This document shows positions 35,996 to 57,618 of a stretch of DNA of 62,327 nt, piece after piece. This DNA is from an uncultured Bacteroidales bacterium (GTDB taxonomy: Bacteria > Bacteroidota > Bacteroidia > Bacteroidales > UBA932): positions 1 to 62,327 of the forward strand of contig CALUQB010000014.1 in NCBI GenBank assembly GCA_944322815.1, read 5' to 3'. The position numbers and the translations under genes are program-made. Position 1 is the stretch's first letter, and each line of letters begins with the position of its first letter. Under the pieces are notes generated by a model. The model ran no database searches. It was not told the origin of the DNA and worked only from the letters and a program-made list of their open reading frames with translations.

Positions 35996-37114
35996 ATGAA
36001 AAAAAATTATTTGCTCTATCTTGCAGTTTCGCTGATAGCTCCGGTTGTGTTTTCCTGCACGAAACCCGAAGACGAGCTTGATGAAGGCTTGGATGTGGCG
36101 TCGGATGCTGTACTCGTATTGAGTGAGACAGCGATTGAAGTGCCATCCGGGGGGGGGTCACAATCAATAGCTTACCAGCTTAAGGAGACAGTCGAGGGAG
36201 CCTCGATTGAAGCGGTATCTTCCGAAAGCTGGGTAAATCAGTTCAATTACGACGTTGACGGCGTCATATCTTTTTACGTAGAGCCTAATGAAGGTCCTGA
36301 CAGATCAGCTACTGTCACAGTACTCTACGGCGAGACATCTCCTTGTTCATTTACCGTCACTCAGCCGGACCCTAAGAAAGTTCCGGATTCGTTTTTAGAC
36401 AACACTACATGGACAGCCATCAAATGCGATTTTGACAGGGAAAGGTCGCTCTTTTATTATTGCGACACCGAAACGCATGATTTCTCATGGCAATACAATC
36501 CGGATGATCCGGACAATCCTATAAGATACATCACGGCAGGCAAGTTCGCTGCAGATTATGCTGCGGCGTGGAATGCTGCATATCCTGACGATCCGAAGAC
36601 TACGGATTATTTCCTTACATTCGAGTTTACTGACCCGACAACTACCGAAGACGGCAGCGGCACTTATTGTGACGTCGAATTCCGTTATAACGAAGCCGGA
36701 AAGCCGACCATCCTGATGAGCAACGGAGCATCCACCCCTGCCGGCGCTGCCACGATATTGAGTGTCACCGGTACATATACTTACGACAGGGCTTCAAGTA
36801 TGCTGATCGTGGATGATGAGGCTATCAAGCAGAGGATATATGACGATGCCGGAAATCTTATGGACATAATCGTGCTCCCGAGAGAGACACTTATACATGT
36901 GGAGAAATCAGGGGAATATCTTATCCTCAGGGTCGAAAAGACAGCATGGCCTCATCCTGATTTCGCTGTGGACACTTATATTCCGGAGTCCAAAGACCAG
37001 CCAAGTTTTGGTTTCAACCTTAACAATTTCGACCTGTCACAGGAGTTCTGCATCTACGGAGGTCTGACTTACACCTTCAAGCCTTGGACCCCTGAAGAGT
37101 CTGATGAACAGTAA
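35996..37114 (+). CDS. Lipoprotein with N-terminal BACON-like domain
   Basis: A 372-aa surface lipoprotein, first gene of the 14-gene locus. The signal ends in the lipobox VVFSC (Cys near residue 21). Residues about 38-125 look like a BACON/Ig-type domain (LSETAIEVPSGGG, a WVNQF segment, then PDRSATVTVLY...CSFTVTQP). The C-terminal region (about 130-370) has several Asp/Trp/Tyr-rich beta segments and is not recognised. A nine-G tract (36149-36157) encodes Gly52-54. Gaining or losing one G would stop translation within about 11 codons, so expression may switch. The next gene follows after 26 bp. Confidence 0.85.
   Translation: MKKNYLLYLAVSLIAPVVFSCTKPEDELDEGLDVASDAVLVLSETAIEVPSGGGSQSIAYQLKETVEGASIEAVSSESWVNQFNYDVDGVISFYVEPNEGPDRSATVTVLYGETSPCSFTVTQPDPKKVPDSFLDNTTWTAIKCDFDRERSLFYYCDTETHDFSWQYNPDDPDNPIRYITAGKFAADYAAAWNAAYPDDPKTTDYFLTFEFTDPTTTEDGSGTYCDVEFRYNEAGKPTILMSNGASTPAGAATILSVTGTYTYDRASSMLIVDDEAIKQRIYDDAGNLMDIIVLPRETLIHVEKSGEYLILRVEKTAWPHPDFAVDTYIPESKDQPSFGFNLNNFDLSQEFCIYGGLTYTFKPWTPEESDEQ
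36149..36157 (+). repeat. G9 homopolymer tract inside the first gene of the locus
   Basis: Nine consecutive G encode Gly52-Gly54. Loss of one G leads to TAG at 36168-36170; gain of one leads to TAA at 36181-36183. It is a candidate slipped-strand phase-variation site. Confidence 0.6.
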
Positions 37115-37140
37115 AAACAACTAAAAATAAACCGAATATT

Positions 37141-39174
37141 ATGAAAACTAAAGGTATTTTGGCTTTTGCCCTGGCAGGAGCCTTCATGGCGTCTTTCGGC
37201 GCACTGACTTCGTGCGAGCAGACTCCTGACGAATTGGAAGATGCTCCGGTAGTCACATTGGAAAGAGTTTCCGAGGAACTTACATCCGTAACTTTCAGGA
37301 TAAGTGCGACCAATGCCGAGAAAGTGGCATATCTGAAACAGGACAACCTGTCCTCCGTACCGAGTGCCAGAGCGATCGTCACTGCAGGTACAGAGGTTTC
37401 GGCATCAGGATCACAGGATGTCACTCTGGAAGACTGTACTCCTGGAGAACAGTATTATGTCGTTGCTGCTGCCATCTCTGAAAGCGGCAAGTATTCCGAG
37501 GTTGCGACCTTGTCTCTTACGGCAGCGGGAACTGACTGTACTTTCACCATTGAAATAGTTTCAGAGCTGGATGAAGCGGTATCATACATCGTTTCCCCTT
37601 CCGATGACCAGGTAAGCTACCTGACTTCGGTGCTGCCTGCGTCGACATACGGTGAAGCTTCGGACGAGAAGATTTTCTCGGACATAATCGCTTCCATATC
37701 GGCTTCAGCCGAGGCGGCCGGACAGTCACTTTCAGAATATCTGGCAGCTAACGCCAACAAGGGACAGAAACAGATAGTCTTCGACAATCTGACACCTGAA
37801 ACGAACTATGTGGTAGTAGCCGTAGGCGTCGATGCCGAAGGCGTACAGTCTACCCCTGTAGCAAGGGAAACGGCTGCCACTATAGCCGAGATTCCGGAAA
37901 TGACATTCGAACTGTCGGTAACTGACATTACTGCCTACTCTGCACATTTTTCAGTCATTCCGAGCGATGATAACAGCAGGTACGTATGGATTTATGCGAA
38001 TGCTTCGAATTTCCCTGACGTGACTTATCCAAGTACTCCGGACGGCCTGAGCCAGGAAGATGCAAACAAGATCGCAGACAAACATATCGAAGGTCAGAAG
38101 GGCTATCTGGATGCAGGTTATGGATTAAGTACAGGCTCGCAGAGTTACGATCTGCCTCTTTCTTCGGATACCAAATTCTATCTTTTCGCTTTTGCTTATG
38201 AACCGGGTCTGGGAAGACAAAGTGACTGCAAGGCTATAGCTTTTGAAACATTGCATGGCTTTTCCGCTGATGAATTTGATGTTGATGTGACTTTCAAGAC
38301 TATTACTTCAACTACTATCAGTGCTTCCGTAGCGACGAAAGATGAAGGAATGAACGGTACATACTGGGGCGCAACTGCTATCCCTAAAGCTGAATATGAT
38401 AAACAGGACGCTTTGGATTATGTAGACAAGATGATTGAAGATCAGGTAACAATGCAGGTTGAAGCTGGTAATGTCAATTATACCAGAGCTGATGCTGTAG
38501 AGTCTTTGGTTTCCCAATATGTCATGTTCCTCGGTCCTGAGGAGACCATAGATGTTATGAATCTGACTCCTGCTACCGAGTATTATCTTGCGATCATTCC
38601 TGTAACCAGCGGCGGTGAAGTTACCGAGACTGTAAGAACGTATGAATTCACCACTCTTTCTTCAAGTGATCAAGGCCCATCCTGCGACATAGAACTTGTA
38701 GGTATGTACAATGCAGATAAAGTCGCTGAACTTGGTATTTTTAATAATTTTACTCCGCAATACGAGAATACTTACTATATAGCTGCTTTAAAAGTCACAA
38801 AAGGCGAAGGAGCCGCTAAGGTCCAGTATGCTTCATCCATGGGTGGCGATTTTACTGATCCTGACGGAAATCCTGAAGGATATTGGACAGATGACTGGTA
38901 TATGAACATACTCCAGTGGACGGAAATACCTCAGGAGAATTTCGATGAAAACGGAGTAGCTTATATCTTCTTGCTTCAAGTATACTACAATGTTTTTACC
39001 CCTGTTGTAGGCAATCAGATTACCACTATAGCCATTGCTGCTGATGATGCTGGTACTTGGGGTGAGTCAGGGCGAGTATTCTATTTTGCATACGATACTT
39101 CAGATGAGCGGCTCGGTGACCCTAATGAGTTGAAGGCTCTTGTAGACAAACTTAATGCTGCTGAAATGCAGTAA
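37141..39174 (+). CDS. Surface lipoprotein with fibronectin III-like repeats (677 aa)
   Basis: A lipoprotein (lipobox LTSC near residue 22-25). At least three fn3-like repeats lie at about residues 35-125, 130-245 and 250-380, each with a TxxxYVVVAAxxxxG or YYxAIIPV-type closing strand, and a fourth at about 385-505. The C-terminal 170 residues (after SSDQGPSC) form another beta-rich domain not recognised. Such proteins usually bind ligands or partners on the cell surface. From about 38200 onward the codon choice becomes clearly more AT-rich than in the first half, as if that part had another origin. An attenuator-like hairpin follows the gene. Confidence 0.8.
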   Translation: MKTKGILAFALAGAFMASFGALTSCEQTPDELEDAPVVTLERVSEELTSVTFRISATNAEKVAYLKQDNLSSVPSARAIVTAGTEVSASGSQDVTLEDCTPGEQYYVVAAAISESGKYSEVATLSLTAAGTDCTFTIEIVSELDEAVSYIVSPSDDQVSYLTSVLPASTYGEASDEKIFSDIIASISASAEAAGQSLSEYLAANANKGQKQIVFDNLTPETNYVVVAVGVDAEGVQSTPVARETAATIAEIPEMTFELSVTDITAYSAHFSVIPSDDNSRYVWIYANASNFPDVTYPSTPDGLSQEDANKIADKHIEGQKGYLDAGYGLSTGSQSYDLPLSSDTKFYLFAFAYEPGLGRQSDCKAIAFETLHGFSADEFDVDVTFKTITSTTISASVATKDEGMNGTYWGATAIPKAEYDKQDALDYVDKMIEDQVTMQVEAGNVNYTRADAVESLVSQYVMFLGPEETIDVMNLTPATEYYLAIIPVTSGGEVTETVRTYEFTTLSSSDQGPSCDIELVGMYNADKVAELGIFNNFTPQYENTYYIAALKVTKGEGAAKVQYASSMGGDFTDPDGNPEGYWTDDWYMNILQWTEIPQENFDENGVAYIFLLQVYYNVFTPVVGNQITTIAIAADDAGTWGESGRVFYFAYDTSDERLGDPNELKALVDKLNAAEMQ

Positions 39175-39280: not shown

Positions 39281-39294
39281 TTTGAAATATAGTT

Positions 39295-40941
39295 ATGAAT
39301 TTGAAGCTGGTATCAGTGGTCTTTGCCGGTCTTTTATCCTGCTTGTATGCCAATGCACAGATCAGACTCGGACCTGGACAGATTTCTGCAAGTCTTGAAT
39401 CCAATTCAGTGTATTATATCAACGATGAAACCATCGGAGAAGCGCCTGAGGACAAGTTCGGTACCAACAATTACCTGAAATTGGACTATACGCTGGGCCG
39501 ATTCTCCGCCGGAGTGCAGGTGGAAGCCTATATGCCGGCCCTGTATGGATATGAACTCGGGGAACAGCCCGATGTGAAGAAGTTTTTTCTTGCCGGCAAA
39601 TATATCCAATGGACAGATGAAAGTTTCGAGGTCCTTGTCGGAGACATTTATGACCAGTTCGGCAACGGACTGATATTCCGCAGTTATGAAGATCGCCAGC
39701 TCGGCCTGAACAATTCCCTGGAAGGCATCAGGGGAATTTACCGTCTGTCCGACTATCTTACCGTAAAAGGTCTGTACGGGCGGCCGAGACTGTATACCGA
39801 TTATGCCGGTTCCTGGGTGCGCGGGGCTGACCTGAGTCTTTCCATAGCTGACATTTTCGGCTGGGATGCCCTTTATCTGAATCTTGAAGGCAGCTATATA
39901 AACCGGTATGAGGCTTTGGACAAGGATCCGAATATGGATTTCGCTGCCTATTACCGTCTTGATACCCCTTATCTGGACATGTTTTCCTCCAGCCTGGATT
40001 TCACTTGGAATTCCCTGTCCCTCAAAGGGGAATTTGCTTGGAAAAGCAAGGATATAACCCCTAATGTCTCTACCAGGGCACAGGAAGGCATGGCTGTTTA
40101 TGCGGAGGCCTTGTACAACTGGAAAACCCTCAGTTTCTCGGCGACTTACCGTATGCTGGACAATATGGGTACGAGTCTCTCCCTTTACGGCAGCGGTACG
40201 GGAAACATGTTGAACTATCTGCCGGCACTTACACGTCAGTACACGTACATGCTGGCGAATCTGAATCCTCATCAGGTGAACAATTCCAATGTCCTGCATC
40301 CGGCTGCAGGTATCACCATGGGTGAACATGCCGCACAGGCTGATATATTCTATTCCCTGCGGAACAAATCCGTACGTCACAGATATTGGAATTTCCATCT
40401 CAACTGGTCCTGCGCCTATACTCTCAAGACAGACGCCGGACAGATGCACAAACTCTGGAACGATATCAATTTCGATGTAGAACGTCAGTGGAGCAGGTCT
40501 CTGAAGACTATTTTCCTGTACTCAAGGCAGGAAGTCTGCTCTTTGTTCGGTTTCGACAAGAAACCGTATGCCTCGGACATATTCGTAGCTGACATTACCT
40601 GGAAGTTCGGCGGCAAGTATTCGCTCCGCGGCGAACTCCAGTATCTTTTGTGTGAAAACGACAGGAGCGAGTGGTCTTCCGGTCACTGCGAGGGCGACTG
40701 GGTGGCAGCCCTTCTGGAATTCAGCTTGGCTCCGAGGTGGAGTCTTTATGTCAGTGACATGTACAACATCGGCATGTCCAAGATACACTACTATGATGCC
40801 GGAGTGAGCTATGCGAAAGGCCGGACCAGGGTGCAGCTAGGTTACGGACGTCACAGGGCCGGATATGTATGCTCCGGTGGCGTATGCCGCTATTCCCCTG
40901 CATATACGGGAGCGAATCTGATGCTTACTACGGCATTCTGA
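39295..40941 (+). CDS. DUF6029 family outer-membrane protein
   Basis: A 548-aa protein predicted to be an outer-membrane beta-barrel of the DUF6029 family. A signal peptide (residues 1-21, ending ANAQ) is followed by the family opening IRLGPGQISASLESNSVYYI and FGTNNYLKLDYTLGRFSAGVQVEAYMPALYGY. The VGDIYDQFGNGLIFRSYEDRQLGLNNSLEG segment is typical. Many amphipathic strands follow and the last strand ends in an aromatic residue (TTAF). Its function is unknown. In this group of genes it is next to an Omp28-type protein, an arrangement that suggests a common complex. Confidence 0.85.
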   Translation: MNLKLVSVVFAGLLSCLYANAQIRLGPGQISASLESNSVYYINDETIGEAPEDKFGTNNYLKLDYTLGRFSAGVQVEAYMPALYGYELGEQPDVKKFFLAGKYIQWTDESFEVLVGDIYDQFGNGLIFRSYEDRQLGLNNSLEGIRGIYRLSDYLTVKGLYGRPRLYTDYAGSWVRGADLSLSIADIFGWDALYLNLEGSYINRYEALDKDPNMDFAAYYRLDTPYLDMFSSSLDFTWNSLSLKGEFAWKSKDITPNVSTRAQEGMAVYAEALYNWKTLSFSATYRMLDNMGTSLSLYGSGTGNMLNYLPALTRQYTYMLANLNPHQVNNSNVLHPAAGITMGEHAAQADIFYSLRNKSVRHRYWNFHLNWSCAYTLKTDAGQMHKLWNDINFDVERQWSRSLKTIFLYSRQEVCSLFGFDKKPYASDIFVADITWKFGGKYSLRGELQYLLCENDRSEWSSGHCEGDWVAALLEFSLAPRWSLYVSDMYNIGMSKIHYYDAGVSYAKGRTRVQLGYGRHRAGYVCSGGVCRYSPAYTGANLMLTTAF

Positions 40942-40977: not shown

Positions 40978-42099
40978 ATGAAACGTCTTTTTCAATTTGC
41001 ATTTTTGTCCGCTGCGGCTGTTGCCCTGGTTTCCGGAATGGCATCTTGCAGCAAGGGCGGTGACGATACGCAATTATCTGAATATCTCAAGATAGTCCCT
41101 GACAAGACTGTCATCATGTCTGACGGCTTCGATGCCGCCACACTGTCGGTGGAGTATGATGGGGTGGATGTCACAGGTGAGGCTGTCGTATTCAATTCCG
41201 ACGGGACCGAAGCGGCGCTCCAGGATTCCAGATTCACTACGGAAACGTCTGGAACATATTCATTCTATGCCACGTACAACGGCGAAAGATCACACGAAGT
41301 GACGATAACCGCGATAGATTCCGCTTTGCCTGAAATTCCTGAAGATCCTCAGCCGGAGAGCACCGATTTCGTCAGAAGGGTGCTTCTTCTTCAGTTTACG
41401 GGAACTGCCTGCGGAAACTGTCCTTACGTGATGGCGGCGCTCGATCGTCTTTCCACTTCACCTGTGCGGGAAGACTATGTGAGAGTAGCCTGCCATTCTT
41501 ACAACGGTGATGATCCTGCATATTATTCCGGTCCTCTTGCCCGCTCGCAGGATGTTCCCGGTTATCCTCATCTGACACTGGATCTCGACAAGAATCTGTT
41601 CGTGCAGTCAAACGCCAATTCCGATGTGGTTTATGCTACCTGTGCCGGTTTTATTCAGAACGAGCTTGAAGACCGTCCGGCTTCGGCAGGAATAGCTGCC
41701 TGTGCTGCCGTCAGCGGAGAAAATGTGATAGTTTCCATGTCAGTGAAAGCGGCCAGGGCCGGACAGTACAAAGTCGGAGCATGGCTGGTGGAAAACGGTA
41801 TATATGCACAGCAGGCAGGTACGTCGAACGAGTCATATTATACTCATAGCGACTGTCTCCGTTATGCGCAATACACAGGTTCGGGGACAAAGGCCGACTA
41901 TAGCGGGGAATCACTCGGGAAACTCGATGCCGGAGAAGAAGCGGAGTATTCTTTCTCCATTCCTGTCGATGAAGGCTGGAAAATCGAAAACTGCCATCTG
42001 GTGCTCATAGTTTCCGCTGCGGAAGGAAGTTCCTACTATGTAAACAATGTGGCTTCCCTCAAGATAGGCGGAACAGTATCATACGAATATGAAGAATAG
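40978..42099 (+). CDS. Omp28-related lipoprotein with thioredoxin-like fold
   Basis: A 373-aa lipoprotein (lipobox MASC, Cys24). Residues about 125-250 resemble the Omp28/thioredoxin-like domain: VLLLQFTGTACGNCPYVMAALDRL has a redox CGNC pair (Cys145, Cys148), then a PGYPHLTLD segment that stands in for the cis-Pro loop. The N-terminal domain (about 30-115) is Ig-like. The Omp28-type C-terminal domain (about 255-373) is beta-rich. It probably acts on disulfides of surface proteins or binds them. The next gene starts 16 bp downstream. Confidence 0.87.
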   Translation: MKRLFQFAFLSAAAVALVSGMASCSKGGDDTQLSEYLKIVPDKTVIMSDGFDAATLSVEYDGVDVTGEAVVFNSDGTEAALQDSRFTTETSGTYSFYATYNGERSHEVTITAIDSALPEIPEDPQPESTDFVRRVLLLQFTGTACGNCPYVMAALDRLSTSPVREDYVRVACHSYNGDDPAYYSGPLARSQDVPGYPHLTLDLDKNLFVQSNANSDVVYATCAGFIQNELEDRPASAGIAACAAVSGENVIVSMSVKAARAGQYKVGAWLVENGIYAQQAGTSNESYYTHSDCLRYAQYTGSGTKADYSGESLGKLDAGEEAEYSFSIPVDEGWKIENCHLVLIVSAAEGSSYYVNNVASLKIGGTVSYEYEE

Positions 42100-42115
42100 G
42101 AATTACGGAAAGATT

Positions 42116-43465
42116 ATGAAAAAAACATATCTGTCAGCGGCATCTGCGGCATTGGCATTTGCTGCAGTCCTTCTTTCAGGATGTTCGGACGGCGGTCCGG
42201 AGTATGCAGACAAAGAGAATCTGTCTTTCGGTATAGAGCTGATATCTGTCGGTGCAAATGAAGTGACGGCGCAAATCCGCCATAACGGGACGGAAGATGT
42301 TACATACTATGCCTTTTGCTACAACGACTTCCACCAGGGAGAAACACTTGCCGTAGAGAAAGCCGTAGCAGCAGTGAAGGAATCAGGAACAGATATTTCC
42401 ACCTTGCTCAGCCGCGGTTCGGATACCGAGGTGACCTGCTCCGGACTCCAGTCCGGGACTTTGTACAGGCTTGTCGTCGTGGGTCTTGACGAACAGTACA
42501 ATATATACGGTACGCCGGCTTCTGTATTTTTCGATACCATAAAGGGAGCAGTCATTTATGAACCTAATCCGGACTGGACCGTTTCCTATCTCGGCAAGCA
42601 GGCTGCAAGTGACAACTCCGGTTATGGAGATGTCGTCCAGGTCATAACCTACGAGACGACTGACGGTTTTTTCGCTATAGCCGTTCCTCTTTCCGAATAT
42701 GAGGAGAAAGGGATCGAAGGCTGTATAACCGATGCTGTGGCCGAGAAAGAGGCGGAGTTCGCCAGACTGGAGGAGCAAGGCTATCTCGTGGACAGGTCGG
42801 ACTATGTCTACTACAATGCCACAGCCTTTATCCTTGATATGGAAGAAGGTGTGGAGTATGTGGGTATAGCGGCCGGTGTGGATGACAACTTCGAGCCTAC
42901 AGGCCTTTATGCCGTTTCCGCTCCTTTCTCTACGGAAGTGGTCGAGTATAGCGAAGCTTATGGAAAATGGCTGGGGACATGGACGATCAGCGGCTATTAT
43001 GAGGACGGGGACGGTCTGCATTCTATCGAATATGACATTAATATCGATTATCTCGTTCCTGACGAGACTTATTTGATCGACGGCTACCAGCCTGAAACGG
43101 CGATATCGCTTCCGTTCGTCCAGGCAGGCTTCGATGCCTCTACAGGCGGCCTTGTCTTCACCTCATCTTATGCAGGCGACAGGTATGATTCAAACGGGAC
43201 ATATTATACAATATATTTCTTTGCGACAAGGTCGCAGCAGAACAATGTCAGCTTCCTGAATACCCAGACTTCATATACTATCGCTACAGCCTCGATGACA
43301 GGGAATACGGCTGTCGTGAGAGCCAATGAAAATCTGACGGAATCCGGGGGAACACCGTTCAACGCTACGGAAATGCAGTTCGTGGCGTTCAGGAACGCCA
43401 ATCCTAATGATCCGGCACTCTTTACTTACGTGCCACGTTTCCCTTTCAATATGGAAAAGAAATAG
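42116..43465 (+). CDS. Surface lipoprotein with fn3-like and lipocalin-like domains (449 aa)
   Basis: The start at 42116 (MKKTYLSAAS) gives a clean lipoprotein signal (LSGC near residue 24); the ATG at 42089 lies within the upstream gene. An fn3-like domain spans about residues 38-140 (ITAxxVTYYAFCY...LYRLVVVGLDE). A second region opens with PNPDWTVSYLGK (about 147). The C-terminal domain (about 285-449) begins WLGTWTISG like a lipocalin and ends in PRFPFNMEKK. It is a paralogue of the gene at 55602-57125, with the same domain order and the same RFP-[FY] ending. Probable surface-exposed binding protein. Confidence 0.8.
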   Translation: MKKTYLSAASAALAFAAVLLSGCSDGGPEYADKENLSFGIELISVGANEVTAQIRHNGTEDVTYYAFCYNDFHQGETLAVEKAVAAVKESGTDISTLLSRGSDTEVTCSGLQSGTLYRLVVVGLDEQYNIYGTPASVFFDTIKGAVIYEPNPDWTVSYLGKQAASDNSGYGDVVQVITYETTDGFFAIAVPLSEYEEKGIEGCITDAVAEKEAEFARLEEQGYLVDRSDYVYYNATAFILDMEEGVEYVGIAAGVDDNFEPTGLYAVSAPFSTEVVEYSEAYGKWLGTWTISGYYEDGDGLHSIEYDINIDYLVPDETYLIDGYQPETAISLPFVQAGFDASTGGLVFTSSYAGDRYDSNGTYYTIYFFATRSQQNNVSFLNTQTSYTIATASMTGNTAVVRANENLTESGGTPFNATEMQFVAFRNANPNDPALFTYVPRFPFNMEKK

Positions 43466-46207: not shown

Positions 46208-47152
46208 ATGAAGAATATGAGAGTAAAACAGATTTTACTGGCTGCAGCATTTTTGACCGGCGGGACTTTTGCCGCCGAAGCACAGGAGAGTGCGGCCATG
46301 ACATTTATTGACAATGCCCTGAATCCGCGGATGGCGGCCATGGGCGGAGTCATGTCCGGACTTTCGGCCGATGCTTATGCCCAGTTCGGCAATATAGCGG
46401 CTGTCCCGCATTATGACGATACCTTTTCGGCAGGCGTTTCATATAGCGCATGGCAGCCGACAGCCTCAGCTTCGAATGTCGGAATTCTGGGGGCCATATA
46501 TAAAACAGGACGTTTCGGCGTATCTGTCGGGGCTTCTGCTTCGATAAATGCCCCGTACATGGGAATGGATGATTATGGAGTACCGACCGGAAAATACACT
46601 CCGACAGACTGGAGGGTAGGTGCCGGAGTCTCTTATCTTATCACTGATGATTTTTCGGCAGGTCTGGGACTCAATTATGCTTCCAGCAAGATTTCCGCAA
46701 AGTATCCTGCCTATTATACGGCCTTTGCCAGCCTGCAGCTGATGTACAGGATCGAAGATTTTTCTATTTCCCTTTCGGGAAACAACCTCGGTCTGCCGGT
46801 ATCCACGCATGCAGGGAACAAGTTCGACATACCGATGAACGGGGAATTGTCAGTGGCGTACGCCAATTCCTGGGATGAACACGAGCTTTCCGCAGTCGTG
46901 GACGGGCGCGTGTATTTCGGAGGTCCTCTTGCGGCAGGCGGTTCCGTGGGAGCGGAATATGGCTATGATTCTCTGGTCTATGTACGTGCAGGATATCATT
47001 ATGCCTCTGTCGGAAACGGCATCCCTTCGTTCGCATCGGCCGGCCTTGGTTTCCGCTTTTTCGGTGTGAACATAGATGCGGCCTATCTGTTCGGCTGGGG
47101 CAATTCGCCTCTCAAGCATACATTTACGGTAGGCGTAGGATATTCTTTCTGA
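46208..47152 (+). CDS. PorV/PorQ-like outer-membrane protein
   Basis: A 314-aa predicted FadL-like beta-barrel of the PorV/PorQ group. A signal peptide (about 1-26, ending AAEAQ) leads into AMTFIDNALNPRMAAMGGVMSGLSADAYAQFGN, the group's opening. Strands alternate to the end, which is an aromatic YSF. In the type IX system PorV hands cargo with a C-terminal sorting domain to the attachment machinery. The gene directly follows an S8 protease with such a domain, so a dedicated shuttle for that protease is plausible. A core T9SS gene set is not seen in the window. Confidence 0.8.
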   Translation: MKNMRVKQILLAAAFLTGGTFAAEAQESAAMTFIDNALNPRMAAMGGVMSGLSADAYAQFGNIAAVPHYDDTFSAGVSYSAWQPTASASNVGILGAIYKTGRFGVSVGASASINAPYMGMDDYGVPTGKYTPTDWRVGAGVSYLITDDFSAGLGLNYASSKISAKYPAYYTAFASLQLMYRIEDFSISLSGNNLGLPVSTHAGNKFDIPMNGELSVAYANSWDEHELSAVVDGRVYFGGPLAAGGSVGAEYGYDSLVYVRAGYHYASVGNGIPSFASAGLGFRFFGVNIDAAYLFGWGNSPLKHTFTVGVGYSF

Positions 47153-50200: not shown

Positions 50201-50441
50201 CGACTATTTGAGTATCAACAATGTCACGATAGGATATACTTTCCCCGAAAAGTGGATGCAGAAGCTGCATATAGCCAGCCTGCGTGTCTATGCCACAGGA
50301 GACAATCTGTGGGTATTTTCGGCACGGAAAGGGCTTGACCCGAGGATGTATTTCGGCGCTCTCGGAGGATCCCAGAGCAACGGCAGCTTTACCTATTCGG
50401 CCATGCGCAGCATATCAGGAGGTATAACTATCACATTCTAA
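47220..50441 (+). CDS. SusC/RagA family TonB-linked outer-membrane transporter
   Basis: A TonB-dependent importer of 1,073 aa. The start at 47220 (MKKLFSAFILF) gives a proper signal peptide; the frame upstream to 47160 would add 20 non-signal residues. After the signal come a carboxypeptidase-D-like regulatory domain (about 25-110), the plug domain with the SusC marker region (ETIVVAYGTATRSSFTGS and SGATIRVRGMGS...NPLYILDGVPYDG) and a barrel that ends in SGGITITF. It pairs with the SusD-like lipoprotein whose frame overlaps its stop codon. In this locus the cargo is probably peptide or protein fragments made by the S8 proteases. Confidence 0.95.
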   Translation: MKKLFSAFILFLPLLSCVLAYGQETVTVTGNVTDASNGLPVPFASIQLKDTMTGASTDGDGNFSMDIPADGVLIFSSIGYKTVEMAVHGAGVLNVVLHPDTEMLDETIVVAYGTATRSSFTGSAAAVDSDKLAERSVANVSSALSGQVSGVQVVQTSGKPGSGATIRVRGMGSMSASNNPLYILDGVPYDGSIENINPADIESMTVLKDAAANAIYGARGANGVILITTKKGKSGEAKVTLDAKWGSNRRMVPNYDVIDNPGQYYELMYRSLYNSQIYAGATSSEAYRYADSALLDAANGGIGYQVYTVPMGEKLIGTNFKLNPNATLGYSDGEYYYTPDDWYDEIFGKGNLRQEYNATVSGSTGKINYYASFGYLDDDGIIDNSGFTRYTGRGKVDYQAKDWLRIGTNMSYSQATYYGDADESSNSSLNLFYAVNMVAPIYPMYVRDAAGNMLYESATGTPIYDNGANSTNAQRPFMGNSRAGATIDNDRFTDINTTFNGQWYAHVTPVEGLTLSVNYSLTESNDRANSLSSRWGSSNDEFDGSTLVTHQRISGINTQYLATYKTTIGRHNIEALAGYERYRLKIQMLQGANDHLYNPFIGELGNAGGITNRDTGSYTNNYMTEGILSRVQYSYGDKYFFSASYRHDASSRFARGHRWGDFGSAGGAWLISDEGFMSGTRGWLDMLKLKASWGVQGNDNLLYANGSSNYYPYVDQYTVSYSETTGEYSKTMYYKGNENITWETSYAFNTGLDFSFFGDRLGGTVEYFNRKTVDLLYNQPVPNSSGIMSGSIPTNVGSILNHGVELDLYGTIISTDKVNWSANINLTHISNKVLDLAEGVRNTGIRSSSSIIRIGGSLYEAYYKRYAGVDPNTGAALYYVDPDNGDWSTTTDYSLAAQSDCGDTMAKVYGGFGTTLNLYGFDFSAQFSYQLGGRLYDGTYQQLMHSGCSQMAGTNWHNDILESWSAENPGSMIPRLDAADNTYQNDSDRFLVSSDYLSINNVTIGYTFPEKWMQKLHIASLRVYATGDNLWVFSARKGLDPRMYFGALGGSQSNGSFTYSAMRSISGGITITF

Positions 50442-50452
50442 TGATTGAGGAG

Positions 50453-52099
50453 ATGAAAATAAAGAAAACATATTATTCGGCGATTGCACTGGCATTGGTT
50501 TCCTGCTCTACGATGGATGAAATGCTGCCTGAGGGAATGTTCATGACTTCCCAGCAGGTGAACGATGCCGTAACTGCCATTCCGGACAGAGCCGAAGCGG
50601 ATCTGGCGGGCATATATTCCTTTGCCGGTCAGGCTCACAGTACGTTTACCACAAACGGTTCCATCCACAATGATTTCGGATATCCGTCAGTCTGCATGTT
50701 CCAGGATTGCAACGGTCCTGACATGGTCTGCGATAACAGCAACTATAACTGGATGTCTGTCAGCCACAACTATACTGACCGAAACGATGACTACATCGTC
50801 TGCTACATCCGCTATTCGTATTTTTACAACCAGATAGCCTTATGCAACAGCGTGCTTTCGGACATGTCCGGAATAAATCTGGACGAAGCTTCTTCGGAGC
50901 TGAGGCACAATGCAGGCCAGGCTCTCGCTGTCAGGGCTTTCGATTATCTGGGACTTGCCCCTTACTATTCTTTCAGGTATCAGGACAACCCGGATGCACT
51001 CAGCGTAAACCTCATGACTGAAGATACCAAGGATTATTACAACAACCCGAGAGTGACTCTCCGCGAGGTGTATGAGCTTATCATCAGCGATCTCGACAGG
51101 GCCATAGATTATCTGTCGGACTACAACAGGGGAGGAGACAAGTCCCGTGTAGACCAGAACGTGGCCTACGGACTCAGAGCCAGGGCATATCTGAATATGG
51201 GAATGTACGCCGAGGCGGCCGAAGATGCGGCCAAAGCCATGGAAGGATATACTCCGTATTCCATGACTGAGGTAGGGACTCCTGCATTCTGCAATATCAA
51301 TGATCATAACTGGATGTGGGGTATCATGCTTGAGTCTGACAATGTTGCCGGACTCGCGAGCTGGCCGGCGCATCTGGCTTCGTTTACCGCTACAGGCTAT
51401 ACGACGGCTACCGGCATGTACAAGCGCATCAACAAGCTTCTGTACGATAAAATCCCGGCTACGGACGTGCGTAAAGGCTGGTGGGTGAACGAGTCTCTCG
51501 ATTCGCCCCTGCTCTCGACCATTGAGTGGAACGGCCGTACAGGCAAGGCTATAGCGTCCATGACCATTCCTGATATCAAACTGCCGTTCAAGGAATATAC
51601 TACAGTGAAATTCGGACAGAAGCAAGGTATCGGAAGTACTGACAATGCCAGTGACTGGTGTATCATGAGGGTGGAGGAAATGATTCTCCTCAGGGCCGAA
51701 GGCCTGGCCATGAGCGGTCAGGAGGGATTGGCCAGGACAGAGCTTGAGAATTTCGTCAGAACCTACAGGGATCCTTCATATACATGCAGCGCCTCATCTG
51801 CCGAAGAGCTTCAGGAGGAAATATGGAAGCAGCGCAGGATAGAATTGTGGGGAGAAGGTTTTTCCATGTCGGATATCATGAGACTGAAAAAGCCGGTAGT
51901 GAGAATCCAGTCCGGCGTAGTGACCAACTGGCCGTCCGCTTATGGCTTCAACGTTGCGCCTGACGATCCGTATCTGCTTCTTCGCTTCCCTCAGAGGGAG
52001 ACGAATAACAACAAGGCCATACCGTCTTCATCGAACAAAAGCGGATCATTGCCAGTGGCAGGTCAGAGGGGAGATCTGAGAGATGGAGTTACCGACTGA
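50453..52099 (+). CDS. SusD/RagB family nutrient-binding lipoprotein
   Basis: The surface lid of the SusC channel, an alpha-helical TPR-type protein of about 548 aa. The start at 50453 (MKIKKTYYS) gives a lipobox (LVSC, Cys near residue 17). SusD features include LGHNAGQALAVRAFDYLGLAPYY-like helices (ALAVRAFDYLGLA near residue 160), ALAKAM-type TPR helices (YAEAAEDAAKAME), and a C-terminal EEIWKQRRIELWGEGFSMSDIMRLKKP segment. It forms a pair with the SusC gene (47220-50441). Ligand specificity cannot be read from sequence; the neighbours suggest peptides. Confidence 0.94.
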   Translation: MKIKKTYYSAIALALVSCSTMDEMLPEGMFMTSQQVNDAVTAIPDRAEADLAGIYSFAGQAHSTFTTNGSIHNDFGYPSVCMFQDCNGPDMVCDNSNYNWMSVSHNYTDRNDDYIVCYIRYSYFYNQIALCNSVLSDMSGINLDEASSELRHNAGQALAVRAFDYLGLAPYYSFRYQDNPDALSVNLMTEDTKDYYNNPRVTLREVYELIISDLDRAIDYLSDYNRGGDKSRVDQNVAYGLRARAYLNMGMYAEAAEDAAKAMEGYTPYSMTEVGTPAFCNINDHNWMWGIMLESDNVAGLASWPAHLASFTATGYTTATGMYKRINKLLYDKIPATDVRKGWWVNESLDSPLLSTIEWNGRTGKAIASMTIPDIKLPFKEYTTVKFGQKQGIGSTDNASDWCIMRVEEMILLRAEGLAMSGQEGLARTELENFVRTYRDPSYTCSASSAEELQEEIWKQRRIELWGEGFSMSDIMRLKKPVVRIQSGVVTNWPSAYGFNVAPDDPYLLLRFPQRETNNNKAIPSSSNKSGSLPVAGQRGDLRDGVTD

Positions 52100-52120: not shown

Positions 52121-52999
52121 ATGAAATTGACAGGATATACCATAATCCCGCTTATGGCGGCTGTCCTTCTTTCCGTTTCCTGCAAAAAGGACGGATACAC
52201 TCCGGGAGGCGAGCAGAATTATTCAGGAGTGAATGTATATTTCGATGAGACGGCGATGGACCCGTCATATCCGTATTTTTCCATGCCTCTTTCTGCGTCC
52301 GAGCTGACTTTCACTCTTGAGAGGGATGATGCTCCGCGTCAGGATGAAAACGTGCCTATCCACTGGTCGTGCGCTTATCCGGAGGCTTTCGATATTCCGG
52401 AAAGCGTGTTTTTCGCCCAGGGTGTCATGTCTGCCGAGGTGACGGTATATTTTACGGGCGAAATGGAAGATTTCAAGGAATACAGGCTGTCTCTTTATGT
52501 GGATGAAGCTTATACCCAGCAGTATATAGAACAGACTACTTATCCGCGTATAGACGTGACTATCGTCCGTGAGGATTACGAGTTGTATCAGACAGGTATC
52601 TATACCTGCGGAGGTGTGATGATGGATCTTATTGACTGGGGCATCGATGCCGGCGGGTCCGACATCGTATCGAGGACTGTCGGCCTGGAATATTCCGAGA
52701 CACTCGATGCCTATCGTATCGATCCGTGGGGACATGGAAACTATATCAGGTTTTCCATTACCGACGAGAAAAACGAAGCAGGTCTGAATATCCTCAGCCT
52801 TGATGCCCAGACTTATCTCACCGGGGACGTCTATTTGGCGCCGGGGGACAGCGGTAATGAGACAGAGGAAGTGAACATTACTGCCAGGCTGGCCGGAGAT
52901 GCCACGTACAATATGAACAGAAGGGAATTTACATTCCCGTTCACATACGGCTATCCGGGACAGGATTCAGGTACAAACAATGATACATTCGGATGGTAA
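52121..52999 (+). CDS. DUF4843-like lipoprotein
   Basis: A 292-aa lipoprotein (lipobox VSC, Cys near 21). It resembles the DUF4843 proteins that commonly follow SusD genes: NVYFDETAMDPSYPYF near residue 36 and an Ig-like sandwich with FTLERDDAPRQDENVPIHWSC, then IDVTIVRED ending the first domain. The second part has WGHGNYIRFSI and a Thr/Asn-rich end. It probably extends the SusD surface binding platform. Its last 7 bp overlap the open frame of the second protease. Confidence 0.75.
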   Translation: MKLTGYTIIPLMAAVLLSVSCKKDGYTPGGEQNYSGVNVYFDETAMDPSYPYFSMPLSASELTFTLERDDAPRQDENVPIHWSCAYPEAFDIPESVFFAQGVMSAEVTVYFTGEMEDFKEYRLSLYVDEAYTQQYIEQTTYPRIDVTIVREDYELYQTGIYTCGGVMMDLIDWGIDAGGSDIVSRTVGLEYSETLDAYRIDPWGHGNYIRFSITDEKNEAGLNILSLDAQTYLTGDVYLAPGDSGNETEEVNITARLAGDATYNMNRREFTFPFTYGYPGQDSGTNNDTFGW

Positions 53000-53019
53000 T
53001 CAAGATACTGAAACAGAAT

Positions 53020-55044
53020 ATGAGAAGATATTGCGTAACATTTGCTGCAGTAGCGGGGCTTCTTTCCACGGCCCTCTCGTGCAGCATAGACCCATTGGAA
53101 GGAGGAAACGGTGCGGGGGAGGCGGTTTTCCCGTCTGCCAAGATAGTGAATGTGCAGGATGACCCGGTGGAGGGTTCCTTGCTGGTGAGGCTGAAGGATT
53201 TGTCGGCTTACGAAGCTCTTCGGCAGAAACTTGCAGCTTCCGGTGTGACTCTTGCTCCCATGTACAGAGGACTTTCCGCACCTGCGACGAAGGTAGGGTC
53301 TCCTGAGGCAGGGCTTGCCTGCTGGTGCAGGCTAGAATTCAGCAGCAATGCCGATTTGGACAGCCTTGCATATGCGGTAGCCGCTTACGACGAAGTCGGA
53401 AAAGTCCAGTTCAACAACAGGATGAAAGTAGCGTCCGACGGCAGGTCCTATCCGATCACGAGATCAGCGTCAGCTTCCGTATCGTCAGCTCCGTTCAATG
53501 ATCCGGAACTCGGGCTGCAGTGGCATTATTACAATGACGGCAGCACCGATATTGCCCCTACGGCAAGACGTGGAGCCGATATCAACGTGACTGATGCCTG
53601 GAGGCTCGAAACGGGTAGACCGGAAGTCATCGTGGCGGTATGCGACCTCGGCGTCCAGTGGAACCATCCTGATCTCGCCGCCAACATGTGGGTGAATGTC
53701 AAGGAGAAGAACGGTGTCGAAGGCCAGACTGATGACGACAACGAGTATGTGGATGATATCTACGGCTACAATTTCGTGGATGATACAGGTGAAATAGACT
53801 GGAGTTCGCCTGGCAATACCGGACATGGGACACACGTTGCCGGTACTGTCGCCGCAGTCAATAACAACGGTATCGGTGTCGCCGGTGTGGCCGGAGGCGA
53901 CGGTTCTCCGGACAGCGGTGTCAGGATCATGGCTCTGCAGATTTTCAACGGAGACAGAGGGGCTTCGGTGGACAAATGCTGCGAGGCGATAAAGTATGCT
54001 GCAGACATGGGTGCCTGCATATTGCAGTGTTCCTGGGGAAACCAGACGCAGTTTACCGGAGATGATGACTTTGCAAGTCAGAACGCAGAGGCGGAAGCTC
54101 TCGAATATTTTATAAATCACAGAGGGAACTGCGATGCCCTGCCTGATGGCAATATCGCGATTTTCGCTTCCGGGAATGATGCCTGGAACAGGGCCGCCTA
54201 TCCGGGTGCCGGCAGAGACTGTATTTCAGTGACAGCCGTGGCTTCGGACGGACTTCCTGCATACTACACGAATTACGGTCCCGGCTGCAATATAGCGGCT
54301 CCGGGAGGCGAATACTTTACCGGAGGCATGATCGACAGCGAGACCGGCTGTGTGCTTTCCACGATGCCGACGGAACCTATAGACTATACTGAAGGAGGGG
54401 AGACTCTTCAGACCGTTACCGACTATGGATATATGCAGGGTACCTCCATGGCTTGCCCTCATGTGTCCGGCGTGGCGGCTTTGGGTCTCTCGTATGCCCT
54501 TACTCTCGGCAAGACATTTACCAAGGATCAGTTCGTGTCCATGCTGCTTACTTCCGTCAATGACATAGACAGCCGTCTTTTCGGCACCAAGCAGACTTTG
54601 GTGACTTCCGCAAGCGGAGTACAGTCAATGGGCGACCTCGATCTTACCGCTTACGTGGGAAAGATGGGTACCGGTACGATCGACGCCTGGAGACTGCTGA
54701 TGCAGATAGAAGGTACTCCATGTCTTATGGCTGAAGTGGGCCGTTCGCAGAGGCTCAGTCTGGATTCGATATTCGGCGGCGGCTCATCCGGCCTGTCATA
54801 TATCGAGAATGTCACCATTTCCGATGAGGACTATGAGGCTCTCGGGTTGCTGACTCCTCCGGTCATCAAGGGTGGTTCCCTGCTGATACAGCCTGAAAAG
54901 GCAGGAGCCGCAAAGCTTACCGTTACCGCCATTGCCGGAGCCGGGACCCCGAGCAACGGCCAGACGATAGGCGGTTCATATATTACAAAGGAGATATCGG
55001 TCATTGCAAGAGGCATTAGCAACGGTAATGGCGGGTGGCTGTAG
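53020..55044 (+). CDS. S8 (subtilisin) serine peptidase, lipoprotein without sorting domain
   Basis: A second subtilase of 674 aa. The start at 53020 (MRRYCVTFAAV) gives a lipoprotein signal (TALSC, Cys near 21). A prodomain (about 40-130) resembles the fervidolysin N-terminal domain. The catalytic triad is complete: Asp209 (VCDLGVQ), His269 (HGTHVAGT) and Ser476 (GTSMACPHVSG), with the oxyanion Asn in FASGNDA. The core is close to the first protease (43490-46201), including the AAVNNNG and GGDGSPDSGV loops. The C-terminal domain (about 540-674) is short, and there is no type IX sorting domain. It would stay anchored by its lipid. Confidence 0.92.
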   Translation: MRRYCVTFAAVAGLLSTALSCSIDPLEGGNGAGEAVFPSAKIVNVQDDPVEGSLLVRLKDLSAYEALRQKLAASGVTLAPMYRGLSAPATKVGSPEAGLACWCRLEFSSNADLDSLAYAVAAYDEVGKVQFNNRMKVASDGRSYPITRSASASVSSAPFNDPELGLQWHYYNDGSTDIAPTARRGADINVTDAWRLETGRPEVIVAVCDLGVQWNHPDLAANMWVNVKEKNGVEGQTDDDNEYVDDIYGYNFVDDTGEIDWSSPGNTGHGTHVAGTVAAVNNNGIGVAGVAGGDGSPDSGVRIMALQIFNGDRGASVDKCCEAIKYAADMGACILQCSWGNQTQFTGDDDFASQNAEAEALEYFINHRGNCDALPDGNIAIFASGNDAWNRAAYPGAGRDCISVTAVASDGLPAYYTNYGPGCNIAAPGGEYFTGGMIDSETGCVLSTMPTEPIDYTEGGETLQTVTDYGYMQGTSMACPHVSGVAALGLSYALTLGKTFTKDQFVSMLLTSVNDIDSRLFGTKQTLVTSASGVQSMGDLDLTAYVGKMGTGTIDAWRLLMQIEGTPCLMAEVGRSQRLSLDSIFGGGSSGLSYIENVTISDEDYEALGLLTPPVIKGGSLLIQPEKAGAAKLTVTAIAGAGTPSNGQTIGGSYITKEISVIARGISNGNGGWL

Positions 55045-55069
55045 AATGTGATGTTATTTTTTGCAGATT

Positions 55070-55552
55070 ATGATTAAAATGATTAGGAACTTTTTATACT
55101 TTCTGGCAGCATCTTTTCTTGTGCTGGGAACGGTTTCTTGCTCTGAAAAAATCGACACCGGTACGGATATTTCCGGACAGTGGCATTTGACGGATACAGG
55201 AGGACTGATCGAGGATCAGAATATGGCTATCGATGTCTATATCTCTTTCGATTCAGGAAATTTCAGCCTTTATCAGAAAGTCGGAGAGGACTTGCTCCGT
55301 TACTGGTATTATGACGGTACATATTCCGTTTCCGGCGACAATGTGCTTACCGGGCGATATACGGATGGAACAAGACTTGGCGGAGCACGCGGACTCGGCT
55401 ATTCGGTTTCCTTGTCCGGTGACGAGCTGACACTTACAGAGGTCGCTTCAGGGGAAGTGAGCGTGTACAGGCGTGCTGAGATACCGTCGGATGTCATCGA
55501 CAATGCCGTGCCTCCGGTCAGATCCGGTGACAGGCCGGCTCCGGTATTGTAA
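55070..55552 (+). CDS. Small lipocalin-like lipoprotein (160 aa)
   Basis: A short lipoprotein (lipobox GTVSC near residue 23). The mature part opens with ISGQWHLTDTGG and shows repeated beta strands (ISFDSGNFSLYQKV, RYWYYDGTYSVSGDNVLTG) that suit a lipocalin or similar small barrel. A Pro/Arg-rich tail closes it. The ATG at 55070 is given; 55079 is an alternative. It lies 25 bp after the second protease and 49 bp before the fn3 lipoprotein. It may be an inhibitor or ligand-binding partner of the proteases, but this is inferred from position only. Confidence 0.7.
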   Translation: MIKMIRNFLYFLAASFLVLGTVSCSEKIDTGTDISGQWHLTDTGGLIEDQNMAIDVYISFDSGNFSLYQKVGEDLLRYWYYDGTYSVSGDNVLTGRYTDGTRLGGARGLGYSVSLSGDELTLTEVASGEVSVYRRAEIPSDVIDNAVPPVRSGDRPAPVL

Positions 55553-55601: not shown

Positions 55602-57125
55602 ATGAAAAAAATGAAATTTTTGGGATGTGCAGCTGCGTTTGCGTTGGCTGCATGGAACTTCTCCGCTTGTGACAATCCGCATGAGGAGCCTGACAATGGG
55701 CCGAGCGATGCCCGTTACCGTGTGTCAGTCAATGAGGCGTCTCTGACTTATAATTCCGTAGAAGTCAGCGTTTCCTGTTCAGGAGAATCTGCCGGCACCT
55801 GGTACTGTTTCGTGACAGAGGATACCGAGTCTTCGATAGATCAGGTCATCGCATCCCAGGTTGCAAGCCTGAACGGCAATATCCAGCCTGTCCTGAAGGC
55901 CGGCAATGCTTCCGTGACCTTTAGCGACCTCACCAAGAGGACTGCCTACAGGGTCGTAGTTACGGGCCTTTCAGCTGACGGAACTACCGACGGGACTCCT
56001 GATGAAGAAGAGTTCGTGACTCCTCTTCCTGAGGGTGAATGGGTGAAGAATCCGAACTGGGAGTGCTCATACAAGGAACGTACGGACATGGTGCTGGACG
56101 AGCAGCTTGGAACTACGATGTACGCCGATGTCCTGGATTTCGTAGTGAAAGGCGGAACAGACTTTTATCTTCCTGCCAAGGTGTCGCTTTCAGACTGGGA
56201 GGAAGTGTATAGTTCCGATATCAACACTTTCGCCAAGTCTCAGATAGCTGTAGTCAAAGAAGAAATCGCATACAGGCTGCAGATGGGTCAGGCTACCAGA
56301 TGGGCAGACTATCTTTCCGATGCCAGCATGTCAGGCTCTCTGGGAGGTATTCTTGATTCTGACGAACAGTGGTATGCTGCCATGATAGGCGTGGACCTCG
56401 ACGGCAACCCTACCGGACTTTACGCCATGTCAGAACTTTTCACTCCTCAGGAGGAAGCGGCTACCGCCGAATACAACCAGTGGCTTGGAACATGGCAAGT
56501 GACAGGTCCGGATGAGGCCGGCCAGGGTACTCTTACCCAGACCATAGTTATCACGGCAGATGAAAACAACTATCAGTATGAGGTGTCAGGATGGCAGAGC
56601 AATTTCGATGATATCGACTTCCCTCCATTCCACGCTCTTTATGACAAAACAGCCCAGACCCTGTCCTTCATGTCGGAAGATGCCATCTGGCCTGTAGATC
56701 TTCATGATTTGAATCTCGATCCGGATATCCAGCAATACGGAAAGGCGAACATAGGTTTCTTTGGTGTCTACCTGAACAACTCCGGCAACAACAATCCGGT
56801 CATGGGCGGTACTTATCCTATAGGAATAGCTACCATGACAGAGCCTGGAAAGGCCGATGTGGAAGGCCAGACGGTGGAAATAGGCGAGAATTATGAAGAA
56901 GTGCAGCTTATCTACATGGGATGGGCGGCTGATTTGCTTGAAAAACCGGGATATGTTTTCACATTCGACTATCGTGTTCCACGTTTCCCTTATACCATGA
57001 CAAAGGTATCGGATGCCCAGCAATCCGTAAAGGTTTCTTCATCCGCCGAGCGTAGGAGCGGATCTGTAAAGATTTCCCGCGCATCGGTCATATCCCATCC
57101 GCTTCCGCATTTTGTGATTTATTAA
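55602..57125 (+). CDS. Surface lipoprotein with fn3-like and lipocalin-like domains (507 aa)
   Basis: A lipoprotein (lipobox FSAC near residue 23), paralogue of the gene at 42116-43465: an fn3-like domain (about 38-143, ending AYRVVVTGLSADG), then a NPNWECSYKER segment that parallels NPDWTVSYLGK, a middle region with WYAAMIGVDLDGNPTGLYAMSELF, and a C-terminal lipocalin-like part opening WLGTWQVTG. The shared RFPYTM motif is here followed by an extra tail of about 40 basic and Ser-rich residues (SVKVSSSAERRSGSVKISR), which the paralogue lacks. The next gene begins with overlapping GTG/ATG codons 1-4 bp downstream. Confidence 0.8.
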   Translation: MKKMKFLGCAAAFALAAWNFSACDNPHEEPDNGPSDARYRVSVNEASLTYNSVEVSVSCSGESAGTWYCFVTEDTESSIDQVIASQVASLNGNIQPVLKAGNASVTFSDLTKRTAYRVVVTGLSADGTTDGTPDEEEFVTPLPEGEWVKNPNWECSYKERTDMVLDEQLGTTMYADVLDFVVKGGTDFYLPAKVSLSDWEEVYSSDINTFAKSQIAVVKEEIAYRLQMGQATRWADYLSDASMSGSLGGILDSDEQWYAAMIGVDLDGNPTGLYAMSELFTPQEEAATAEYNQWLGTWQVTGPDEAGQGTLTQTIVITADENNYQYEVSGWQSNFDDIDFPPFHALYDKTAQTLSFMSEDAIWPVDLHDLNLDPDIQQYGKANIGFFGVYLNNSGNNNPVMGGTYPIGIATMTEPGKADVEGQTVEIGENYEEVQLIYMGWAADLLEKPGYVFTFDYRVPRFPYTMTKVSDAQQSVKVSSSAERRSGSVKISRASVISHPLPHFVIY

Positions 57126-57129
57126 AGTG

Positions 57130-57618
57130 ATGAAAAAATTCATTTCAATAATATCGGCTATCCTCCTGGCTTCACATCTGGTTTCGGCACAGACTCTTCC
57201 GGATGTGAAGGTGGAGGATATATCAGGCGAGACTGTCAGCATACGTTCCGTAGTCAAAGACAAGCCGGTGATCATCTCTTTCTGGGGTGTAACATGCAAG
57301 CCTTGCATTGCGGAGCTGAATGCTTTGAACGATGTCATGGAAGACTGGCTCACACAGGTGGATTTCGATATCATAGCCGTGTCTGTCGATGACAGCCGTT
57401 TTCTTGCCAGGGCAAAATCGATGACTCAGGGCTACGGCTGGCAGTTCCACTGCGTGTTCGACAAGAACCAGGATCTGAAGCGTGCGATGAACGTATCCCT
57501 GACTCCTCAGACTTTCATCGTTGACAAGTCGGGACAAATCGTGTATTCGCATTCAGGTTATACTCCTGGCAGCGAGACGGAACTTCTCGACAAATTGCTT
57601 GAGATTTCCGCGGAGTAG
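57130..57618 (+). CDS. TlpA-like extracytoplasmic thioredoxin
   Basis: A 162-aa exported thioredoxin-fold protein. A signal peptide (about 1-20, ending VSAQ) precedes the TlpA/AhpC-type domain: PVIISFWGVTCKPCIAELNALN holds the redox pair Cys56 and Cys59 (CKPC), and a cis-Pro lies in VSLTPQTFIVDKSG. It would reduce disulfides outside the cytoplasm. It is the last gene of the locus and, with the CGNC Omp28-type protein, the second redox protein there; the extracellular proteases or their substrates are possible targets. The ATG at 57130 is chosen over the GTG at 57127. The bidirectional terminator follows. Confidence 0.93.
   Translation: MKKFISIISAILLASHLVSAQTLPDVKVEDISGETVSIRSVVKDKPVIISFWGVTCKPCIAELNALNDVMEDWLTQVDFDIIAVSVDDSRFLARAKSMTQGYGWQFHCVFDKNQDLKRAMNVSLTPQTFIVDKSGQIVYSHSGYTPGSETELLDKLLEISAE

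Follow-up and report, generated by a model that had tools for sequence, protein, structure and literature searches.

A SusCD-type protease locus of an uncultured Bacteroidales bacterium with a lipoprotein subtilase beside a PorV-like barrel and a candidate surface thiol cassette

The window analyzed here, 62,327 nucleotides in full, is contig CALUQB010000014.1 (C14) of an uncultured Bacteroidales bacterium, one of 64 contigs in a 2.68-Mb genome that is 93.9% complete. Positions 35996 to 57618 carry 14 open reading frames (ORFs, g01 to g14) on the same strand with intergenic gaps of -11 to +120 bp, as called by a simple longest-ORF script and not by a gene finder, in agreement with an earlier sequence-only reading that described the locus as running in one direction with mostly short gaps. 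By sequence comparison, the locus is a composite of two modules found separately elsewhere. Module 1 consists of SusC, SusD, one or more lipoproteins, a subtilase with a C-terminal domain (CTD) of the type IX secretion system (T9SS) and a PorV-like barrel, and module 2 of a phylum-wide TlpA-DUF6029-Omp28 thiol cassette. The features are as follows.

35652-35681, + strand: terminator-like hairpin 3' of the upstream gene, with a 13-pair stem and a T-rich tail
35838-35868, + strand: Bacteroidota-type promoter, TTTG-N19-TAATTTTG, exact match
35996-37114, + strand: g01, lipoprotein with a weak BACON match slightly below the cut-off (PF13004, E 2.8e-5); lipobox FSC by eye
37141-39174, + strand: g02, fn3-repeat lipoprotein (PF00041, E 3.8e-6); lipobox TSC by eye
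39295-40941, + strand: g03, DUF6029 outer-membrane barrel (PF19494, E 1.4e-157)
40870-40887, + strand: CSGGVC pair of g03 (C526, C531)
40978-42099, + strand: g04, Omp28 lipoprotein (PF11551, E 1e-26); CGNC at 41410-41421
42089-43465, + strand: g05, lipoprotein with a layout similar to g13; no Pfam match; lipobox by eye; kept in relatives
43490-46201, + strand: g06, subtilase with lipobox and T9SS CTD (PF00082, E 5.8e-43; PF16361; PF18962); CTD at 45971-46168
46208-47152, + strand: g07, PorV-like 14-strand barrel (NF033709 over cut-off)
47160-50441, + strand: g08, SusC/RagA TonB-dependent transporter (TIGR04056, E 1.3e-231)
50441-52099, + strand: g09, SusD/RagB lipoprotein (PF14322, SusD-like_3, and PF07980, SusD_RagB)
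52121-52999, + strand: g10, lipoprotein at the place of DUF4843, matching no Pfam or NCBIfam family; kept in relatives
52993-55044, + strand: g11, second subtilase lipoprotein (PF00082, E 6.2e-39); D218/H278/S485 motifs; no CTD match
55061-55552, + strand: g12, Lipocalin_4 lipoprotein (PF13648)
55602-57125, + strand: g13, lipoprotein; no Pfam match; kept in relatives
57127-57618, + strand: g14, TlpA/ResA-like thioredoxin (PF00578, E 3.1e-19); CKPC at 57295-57306

The presence of SusC and SusD in tandem (g08, g09) is as in a SusCD-type polysaccharide-utilization locus (PUL). No glycosidase, lyase or other carbohydrate-active enzyme was matched among the 14 proteins in Pfam and NCBIfam (E ≤ 0.01), and, unlike in a typical SusCD-type PUL, neither database gave a match to a regulator family. 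The sequence-only reading had likewise noted the absence of glycosidases and proposed a PUL-shaped locus in which proteases replace them, with its own PorV-family gene and with redox proteins that belong to the locus, and these proposals are supported. Its gene list was also borne out for the two S8 lipoprotein proteases (Asp/His/Ser intact and a lipobox in both, that of g11 by eye), the DUF6029 and Omp28 proteins, SusC, SusD and the thioredoxin. Two points of the list did not survive: the DUF4843 label given to 52121-52999 found no match, leaving a lipoprotein in the DUF4843 position, and the CTD of the first subtilase had been overlooked, as had the DUF6029 cysteine pair and the missing T9SS translocon. 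The window holds five exact matches to the Bacteroidota promoter consensus where 0.32 would be expected, and 35996-57618 is free of them. Because the same-strand gaps are short, a hairpin ends at 35681, a promoter match follows at 35838-35868 and no such match lies inside, the 14 genes likely form one transcript.

The T9SS type A CTD of g06 was located at residues 828-892 (PF18962, E 2.9e-7; TIGR04183, 26.3 bits against a cut-off of 23), in a protein with the catalytic triad D209/H264/S450 and a lipobox detected by pattern search. The adjoining g07 scored 117.7 bits with NF033709 (PorV/PorQ family, cut-off 90), as expected from the earlier description of a PorV-like barrel, and 67.8 bits with the PorV equivalog NF033710, below the curated cut-off of 250. 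Nine PorV proteins from relatives that bear the translocon protein SprA scored 206-418 bits with the latter model, three of the nine over the cut-off. Phylogenetic tree analysis placed g07 and 25 relatives apart from these nine PorV proteins with a support of 100/100. The AlphaFold2 (AF2) model of g07 (pLDDT 87.4) showed 14 long strands in a PorV/FadL-type fold, and its best PDB fold matches were the T9SS complex chains 8gl6_F (RemA-CTD-bound) and 6h3i_F, chain F being PorV in both. An assignment of g07 as BamG was rejected, as NF053685 did not match g07 (4 of 26 relatives match) and the BamADG chain reached only rank 27 in the fold search. Of the eight named records that encode a g07 relative, five belong to Candidatus Cryptobacteroides and three are contigs of uncultured Bacteroidales, which makes Cryptobacteroides the very likely genus.

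The association of the CTD protein with the PorV-like barrel was then counted in relatives. We compared 25 loci (the window and 24 relatives) with 26 PorV-like genes in total; the relatives represent 24 of 29 loci taken around a PorV-like gene, omitting those of G219, G284, G124, G093 and G115. A CTD protein directly adjoins 24 of the 26 PorV-like genes, namely 23 full subtilases and one 188-aa remnant without the protease, while one of the other two has an intervening gene and one lies about 6 kb from the CTD protein. TIGR04183 matched all 26 CTD proteins adjoining or near PorV-like genes (E ≤ 0.01). The 26 proteins aligned were g06 homologues picked near a PorV-like gene and not blindly, two of them from one genome (G045), with the g06 copy of G223 excluded as it is split between two stretches. 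A lipobox was found in 25 of these 26 (24 under a narrower pattern), which departs from the plain Sec signal of T9SS cargo, and the complete catalytic triad also in 25, the exception being the remnant. By comparison, 11 of 14 CTD proteins from SprA-bearing relatives have no lipobox, and the other three are one small protein in one genus. Across the 28 SprA-lacking genomes, 34 of 45 CTD matches had a PorV-like gene no more than 3.2 kb away, where a rough 0.4% per CTD would be expected by chance, and 33 of 39 PorV-like genes had a CTD inside the same distance; G284, G124 and G093 entered this analysis by coordinates. The own genome encodes one CTD protein and one PorV-like gene.

Module 1 retained its order in G112 and G081, where SusC, SusD, lipoprotein(s), the CTD-bearing subtilase and the PorV-like gene follow each other with no DUF6029 in the stretch examined, and more distant members of the family showed the same order. 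Of the 25 PorV-like loci, 21 had a homologue of SusC or SusD, with SusD assigned by position in some relatives that gave no match (for instance G081, L078, L023 and L024). Two loci whose PorV-like gene was missed by the ORF caller were read directly: L178 contains the subtilase-CTD/PorV-like pair, with a CTD of 24.7 bits that is over the TIGR04183 cut-off and under the Pfam cut-off, and L179 contains no such pair. As a separate observation, PorV adjoins a CTD protein of 225-241 aa in L116, L117, L120 and L121, which are from SprA-bearing relatives of one genus.

SprA/Sov was detected in 0 of 25 genomes of the own genus, in all 16 genomes examined from the order's other families and, over the cut-off, in 48 of 299 genomes of the own family (9 of 25 genera); none of the 49 genomes matching SprA in the 299-genome search belonged to the own genus. 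These 48 genomes did not overlap at all with the 95 family genomes that have a strong g07 match, defined as about E ≤ 1e-14, the best g07 match in any of the 48 being 1.6e-12. GldM/PorM was not found in the own genome either, and among the 28 SprA-lacking genomes it occurred only in G217 and G112 (over the cut-off) and G231 (below). A working T9SS in the source organism was thus rejected, as neither SprA nor GldM was found, and a PorV-type protein cannot mean T9SS secretion here because SprA was not found: compared with the T9SS, the CTD cargo is present (26/26 with TIGR04183, g06 over the cut-off) but SprA and GldM were not detected. PorU also gave no match in the own genome, which we dropped as evidence since four of five SprA-bearing controls had no match over the cut-off either (SprA-bearing genomes of this kind include G047, G053, G060 and G065).

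PorU and PorZ of the T9SS keep their CTD. In the T9SS attachment complex these surface proteins are held by the PorV and PorQ barrels (PMC8545088). The present case differs in having a lipobox-bearing subtilase as the enzyme, and in a genome where searches detected no SprA, GldM or PorU. BamG-BamH and Bt1926-Bt1927 are likewise pairs of a barrel and a surface lipoprotein, the barrel being a platform or putative anchor (PMC12578637, PMC12611786), from which g07 differs in being PorV-like and not BamG. The barrel might instead be an export route for the lipoprotein protease, with g07 acting alone or with g08 or the β-barrel assembly machinery (BAM) as a small secretion device, which we regard as unlikely. 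The Myxococcus protease PopC is a subtilisin. Its secretion requires a TonB-dependent transporter (PMC6434023), PorV shuttles CTD cargo in the T9SS and the crossing of surface lipoproteins in Bacteroidota is described as unsolved (PMC12578637), all of which would suit such a route. However, no CTD was matched in g11 or in the other lipoproteins, all of which presumably get to the surface without g07. Moreover, FadL-type barrels are narrow.

Membership of g03, g04 and g14 in the DUF6029, Omp28 and TlpA/ResA families follows from Pfam, with g03 at 526 bits (PF19494, cut-off 27) and g04 at 94.3 bits (PF11551, cut-off 34.9; NCBIfam NF033782 stayed under its cut-off). Of 395 genomes from the whole phylum, 98 encode DUF6029, as do 65 of 171 genera. 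We read 67 copies, comprising 18 aligned ones, 29 phylum loci and 20 chosen lower-scoring ones; the phylum copies come from 49 of 97 other genomes and represent the 29 best-scoring loci and 20 hand-picked lower-scoring ones, with weaker ones excluded. The motif Cx[GNS]G[VI]C was present in all 67 copies, its first cysteine standing 23-24 residues ahead of the C-terminal end. The motif cysteines are the only ones beyond residue 40 in 44 of the copies; g03, which has five further cysteines, is not among these. A TlpA gene lies directly upstream of DUF6029 in 42 of the 67 copies (28/47 and 15/20 in the separate runs, 42/67 in the joint run), and a CxxC protein with a lipobox or CTD lies directly downstream in 40. 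Such neighbor counts depend on the rule applied, as Omp28-like neighbors number 21/47 against 40/67 for exported CxxC neighbors. Of seven downstream neighbors tested by Pfam, six matched Omp28, and in the seventh (L036, 3922-4728) an AhpC-TSA thioredoxin with a T9SS CTD replaces it. The use of two different export routes by the third cassette member, lipobox and T9SS CTD, suggests that it works at the surface.

The own genome contains three DUF6029 copies, the other two also beside SusC and Omp28 genes. At L023 (G000:C22:15001-35000), positions 5251-20000 encode SusC, SusD (by position), TlpA, DUF6029, three Omp28-like lipoproteins and two large lipoproteins. At L024 (G000:C25:1-20000), positions 5323-20000 encode Omp28, DUF6029, a BACON lipoprotein, SusC, SusD (by position), a Met-zincin (PF16313) metalloprotease and a PKD_2 lipoprotein, so that a protease again occurs together with SusC and the putative redox barrel. 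Among other genomes, a CTD-bearing CxxC protein directly follows DUF6029 in L191, L192 and L198 and stands two genes on in L194-L196, and L033 (4299-6845) encodes an 848-aa protein with three Omp28 stretches that adjoins DUF6029.

In the AF2 model of g03 (pLDDT 82.7), the CxGGxC-type motif occupies the hairpin that links the final two long strands, a loop that would be extracellular by the usual barrel topology. The fold search gave no informative or close match of DUF6029 to a solved fold (TM-score ≤ 0.49 among the 50 matches listed). The model and the gene order would also suit a role in assembly, in which TlpA does no more than set the disulfide of DUF6029 and Omp28 while these are being made, the CxGGxC-type pair being a structural disulfide: the β-hairpin adjoins the last strand, and TlpA is so often the upstream neighbor. 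We consider this a real possibility, although on the less probable side, as the motif is strict in both sequence and place in all 67 copies and the protein encoded downstream recurrently carries an export signal and a CxxC of its own. Another proposal concerns polysaccharide export, since many of 28 barrels linked to OPX proteins are similar to DUF6029 by HHpred (PMC9603273, the only paper naming DUF6029 in the open-licence literature searched), and a porin function was proposed for such OPX-paired barrels. It is very unlikely that DUF6029 is such a porin, as its recurrent neighbors are thioredoxin-type genes (no scan of the neighbors for polysaccharide-export domains was made) and such a role would not account for the cysteine pair.

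Based on these features, we give an even chance to the reading that the locus is a surface-proteolysis and peptide-import operon of two modules, with a CTD-docked subtilase and a built-in surface thiol system. Surface lipoproteins would bind a substrate protein, the two subtilase lipoproteins g06 and g11 would cut it, and SusC/SusD would import the resulting peptides. The CTD of g06 would most likely not serve for passage through a T9SS translocon but keep the subtilase on the g07 barrel, in the way that PorU and PorZ of P. gingivalis are held by PorV and PorQ; this docking is suggested by the adjacency of the genes, by their co-retention and by the precedent of PorU on PorV. TlpA in the periplasm, DUF6029 in the outer membrane and Omp28 as a surface lipoprotein would form a thiol-redox set, in which TlpA may exchange disulfides with the CxGGxC-type pair of DUF6029 or with Omp28. 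The set would keep a surface dithiol reduced, probably opening substrate disulfides before cutting. We infer the surface location, docking, electron flow and its direction, substrate (including its foreign origin) and peptide import from sequence. A possible likeness to trans-envelope thiol relays such as DsbD or CcdA extends to the conserved cysteine motifs, as seen in the 67 DUF6029 copies. More tentatively, TlpA-DUF6029-Omp28 could be a phylum-wide relay across the outer membrane, wired in Cryptobacteroides into a protein-eating operon with a PorV-docked lipidated subtilase and no T9SS translocon.

In the two nearest, same-genus genomes (G223 and G229), g01 to g13 (13 of the 14 genes) occur in the same order. 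When gene dispersal in relatives, the refuting condition of the sequence-only reading, was looked at, the block was thus kept in these two, and the SusCD-lipoprotein-subtilase-PorV order recurred across the own family and in other families. G217 has SusCD-g10-subtilase-g12-g13 together with the divergent 188-aa CTD remnant adjoining its PorV-like gene. Several observations weigh against the operon reading. Terminator-like sites inside the locus are commoner than in shuffles (26 against 14.8), g14 is absent at the locus in both G223 and G229, and TlpA is not the direct upstream neighbor in 25 of the 67 DUF6029 copies. None of the eight DUF6029 loci from other families (stretches of 4 to 20 kb) has a subtilase, SusC or SusD homologue, so the cassette has no fixed link with the use of protein. 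For eleven of the 45 CTDs no PorV-like gene was counted within 3.2 kb (one of them, in G081, adjoins a PorV-like gene detected only by profile), and PorV-like genes without a CTD neighbor occur at three loci in family f166 and one in f18. Furthermore, the pair of lipobox-CTD subtilase and PorV-like barrel was also found in families f3, f128, f141 and f159 (six genomes), and SprA is present in five of these six, G830, G885, G982 (in pieces), G1056 and G913, and not in G815. As five genomes have both the pair and SprA, the pair may have begun with the T9SS. A restriction of the pair to SprA-lacking genomes, which is true within the family, is ruled out beyond it by these genomes. The sequence-only reading had seen one self-contained system; the other-family DUF6029 loci, together with module 1 of G112 and G081 standing without DUF6029, point to a composite.

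Given its occurrence alongside SprA in other families, the pair is probably older than the loss of SprA and was retained afterwards. The CTD of g06 could still be a vestige of a former T9SS cargo, now a plain β-sandwich, with g07 a FadL-type channel carried along. SprA is missing in the genus yet present in other genera of the family and throughout the other-family genomes, and the CTD scores are modest (26-31 bits), which speaks for such a vestige. We nevertheless hold this to be improbable. The combination of lipobox and CTD also occurs in SprA-bearing genomes of other families, indicating that the lipobox did not follow SprA loss; the CTD end motifs and the g07-type neighbor persist across five families; and G217 retains a CTD piece beside its g07 homologue with the protease gone (the piece was not listed in the genome search at E ≤ 0.001).

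The locus is most likely an operon for proteolysis at the surface with import of the peptides, a variant form of a kind of system already known. The proteases of P. gingivalis, unlike those here, are encoded away from RagAB and exported by the T9SS. RagAB itself is a SusCD-type transporter, as here, and is implicated in protein uptake (PMC11817032). In B. thetaiotaomicron, the SusD-like BT3013 belongs to an uncharacterised PUL with the M60-like peptidase BT3015 and no CAZymes, and BT4240-50 combines SusCD with the surface peptidase BT4244 (PMC11992087). These loci share with ours a peptidase encoded with SusCD; they differ in that the peptidases are M60-like metallopeptidases and that BT4240-50 also contains glycoside hydrolases, and the excerpt mentions no CTD, PorV-like barrel or DUF6029. 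Among the titles and abstract starts listed from the open-licence literature, none reported a CTD protease that is lipidated and comes with a PorV of its own, nor was a link of Omp28 or TlpA to a cysteine-bearing outer-membrane barrel found in that literature.

If the proposed working is true, gut Bacteroidota would own PUL-like protein loci in which a PorV-type barrel holds a protease although no T9SS is present, and PorV/CTD recognition would be uncoupled from SprA, providing a simple system for studying it. The cysteine motif would offer a first testable function for the widespread DUF6029 barrel, and these two outer-membrane devices merit follow-up more than the locus as a whole. A third Peptidase_S8_N subtilase of the genome is encoded at 8634-10757 of L025 (G000:C3:25001-45000), near several large putative lipoproteins.

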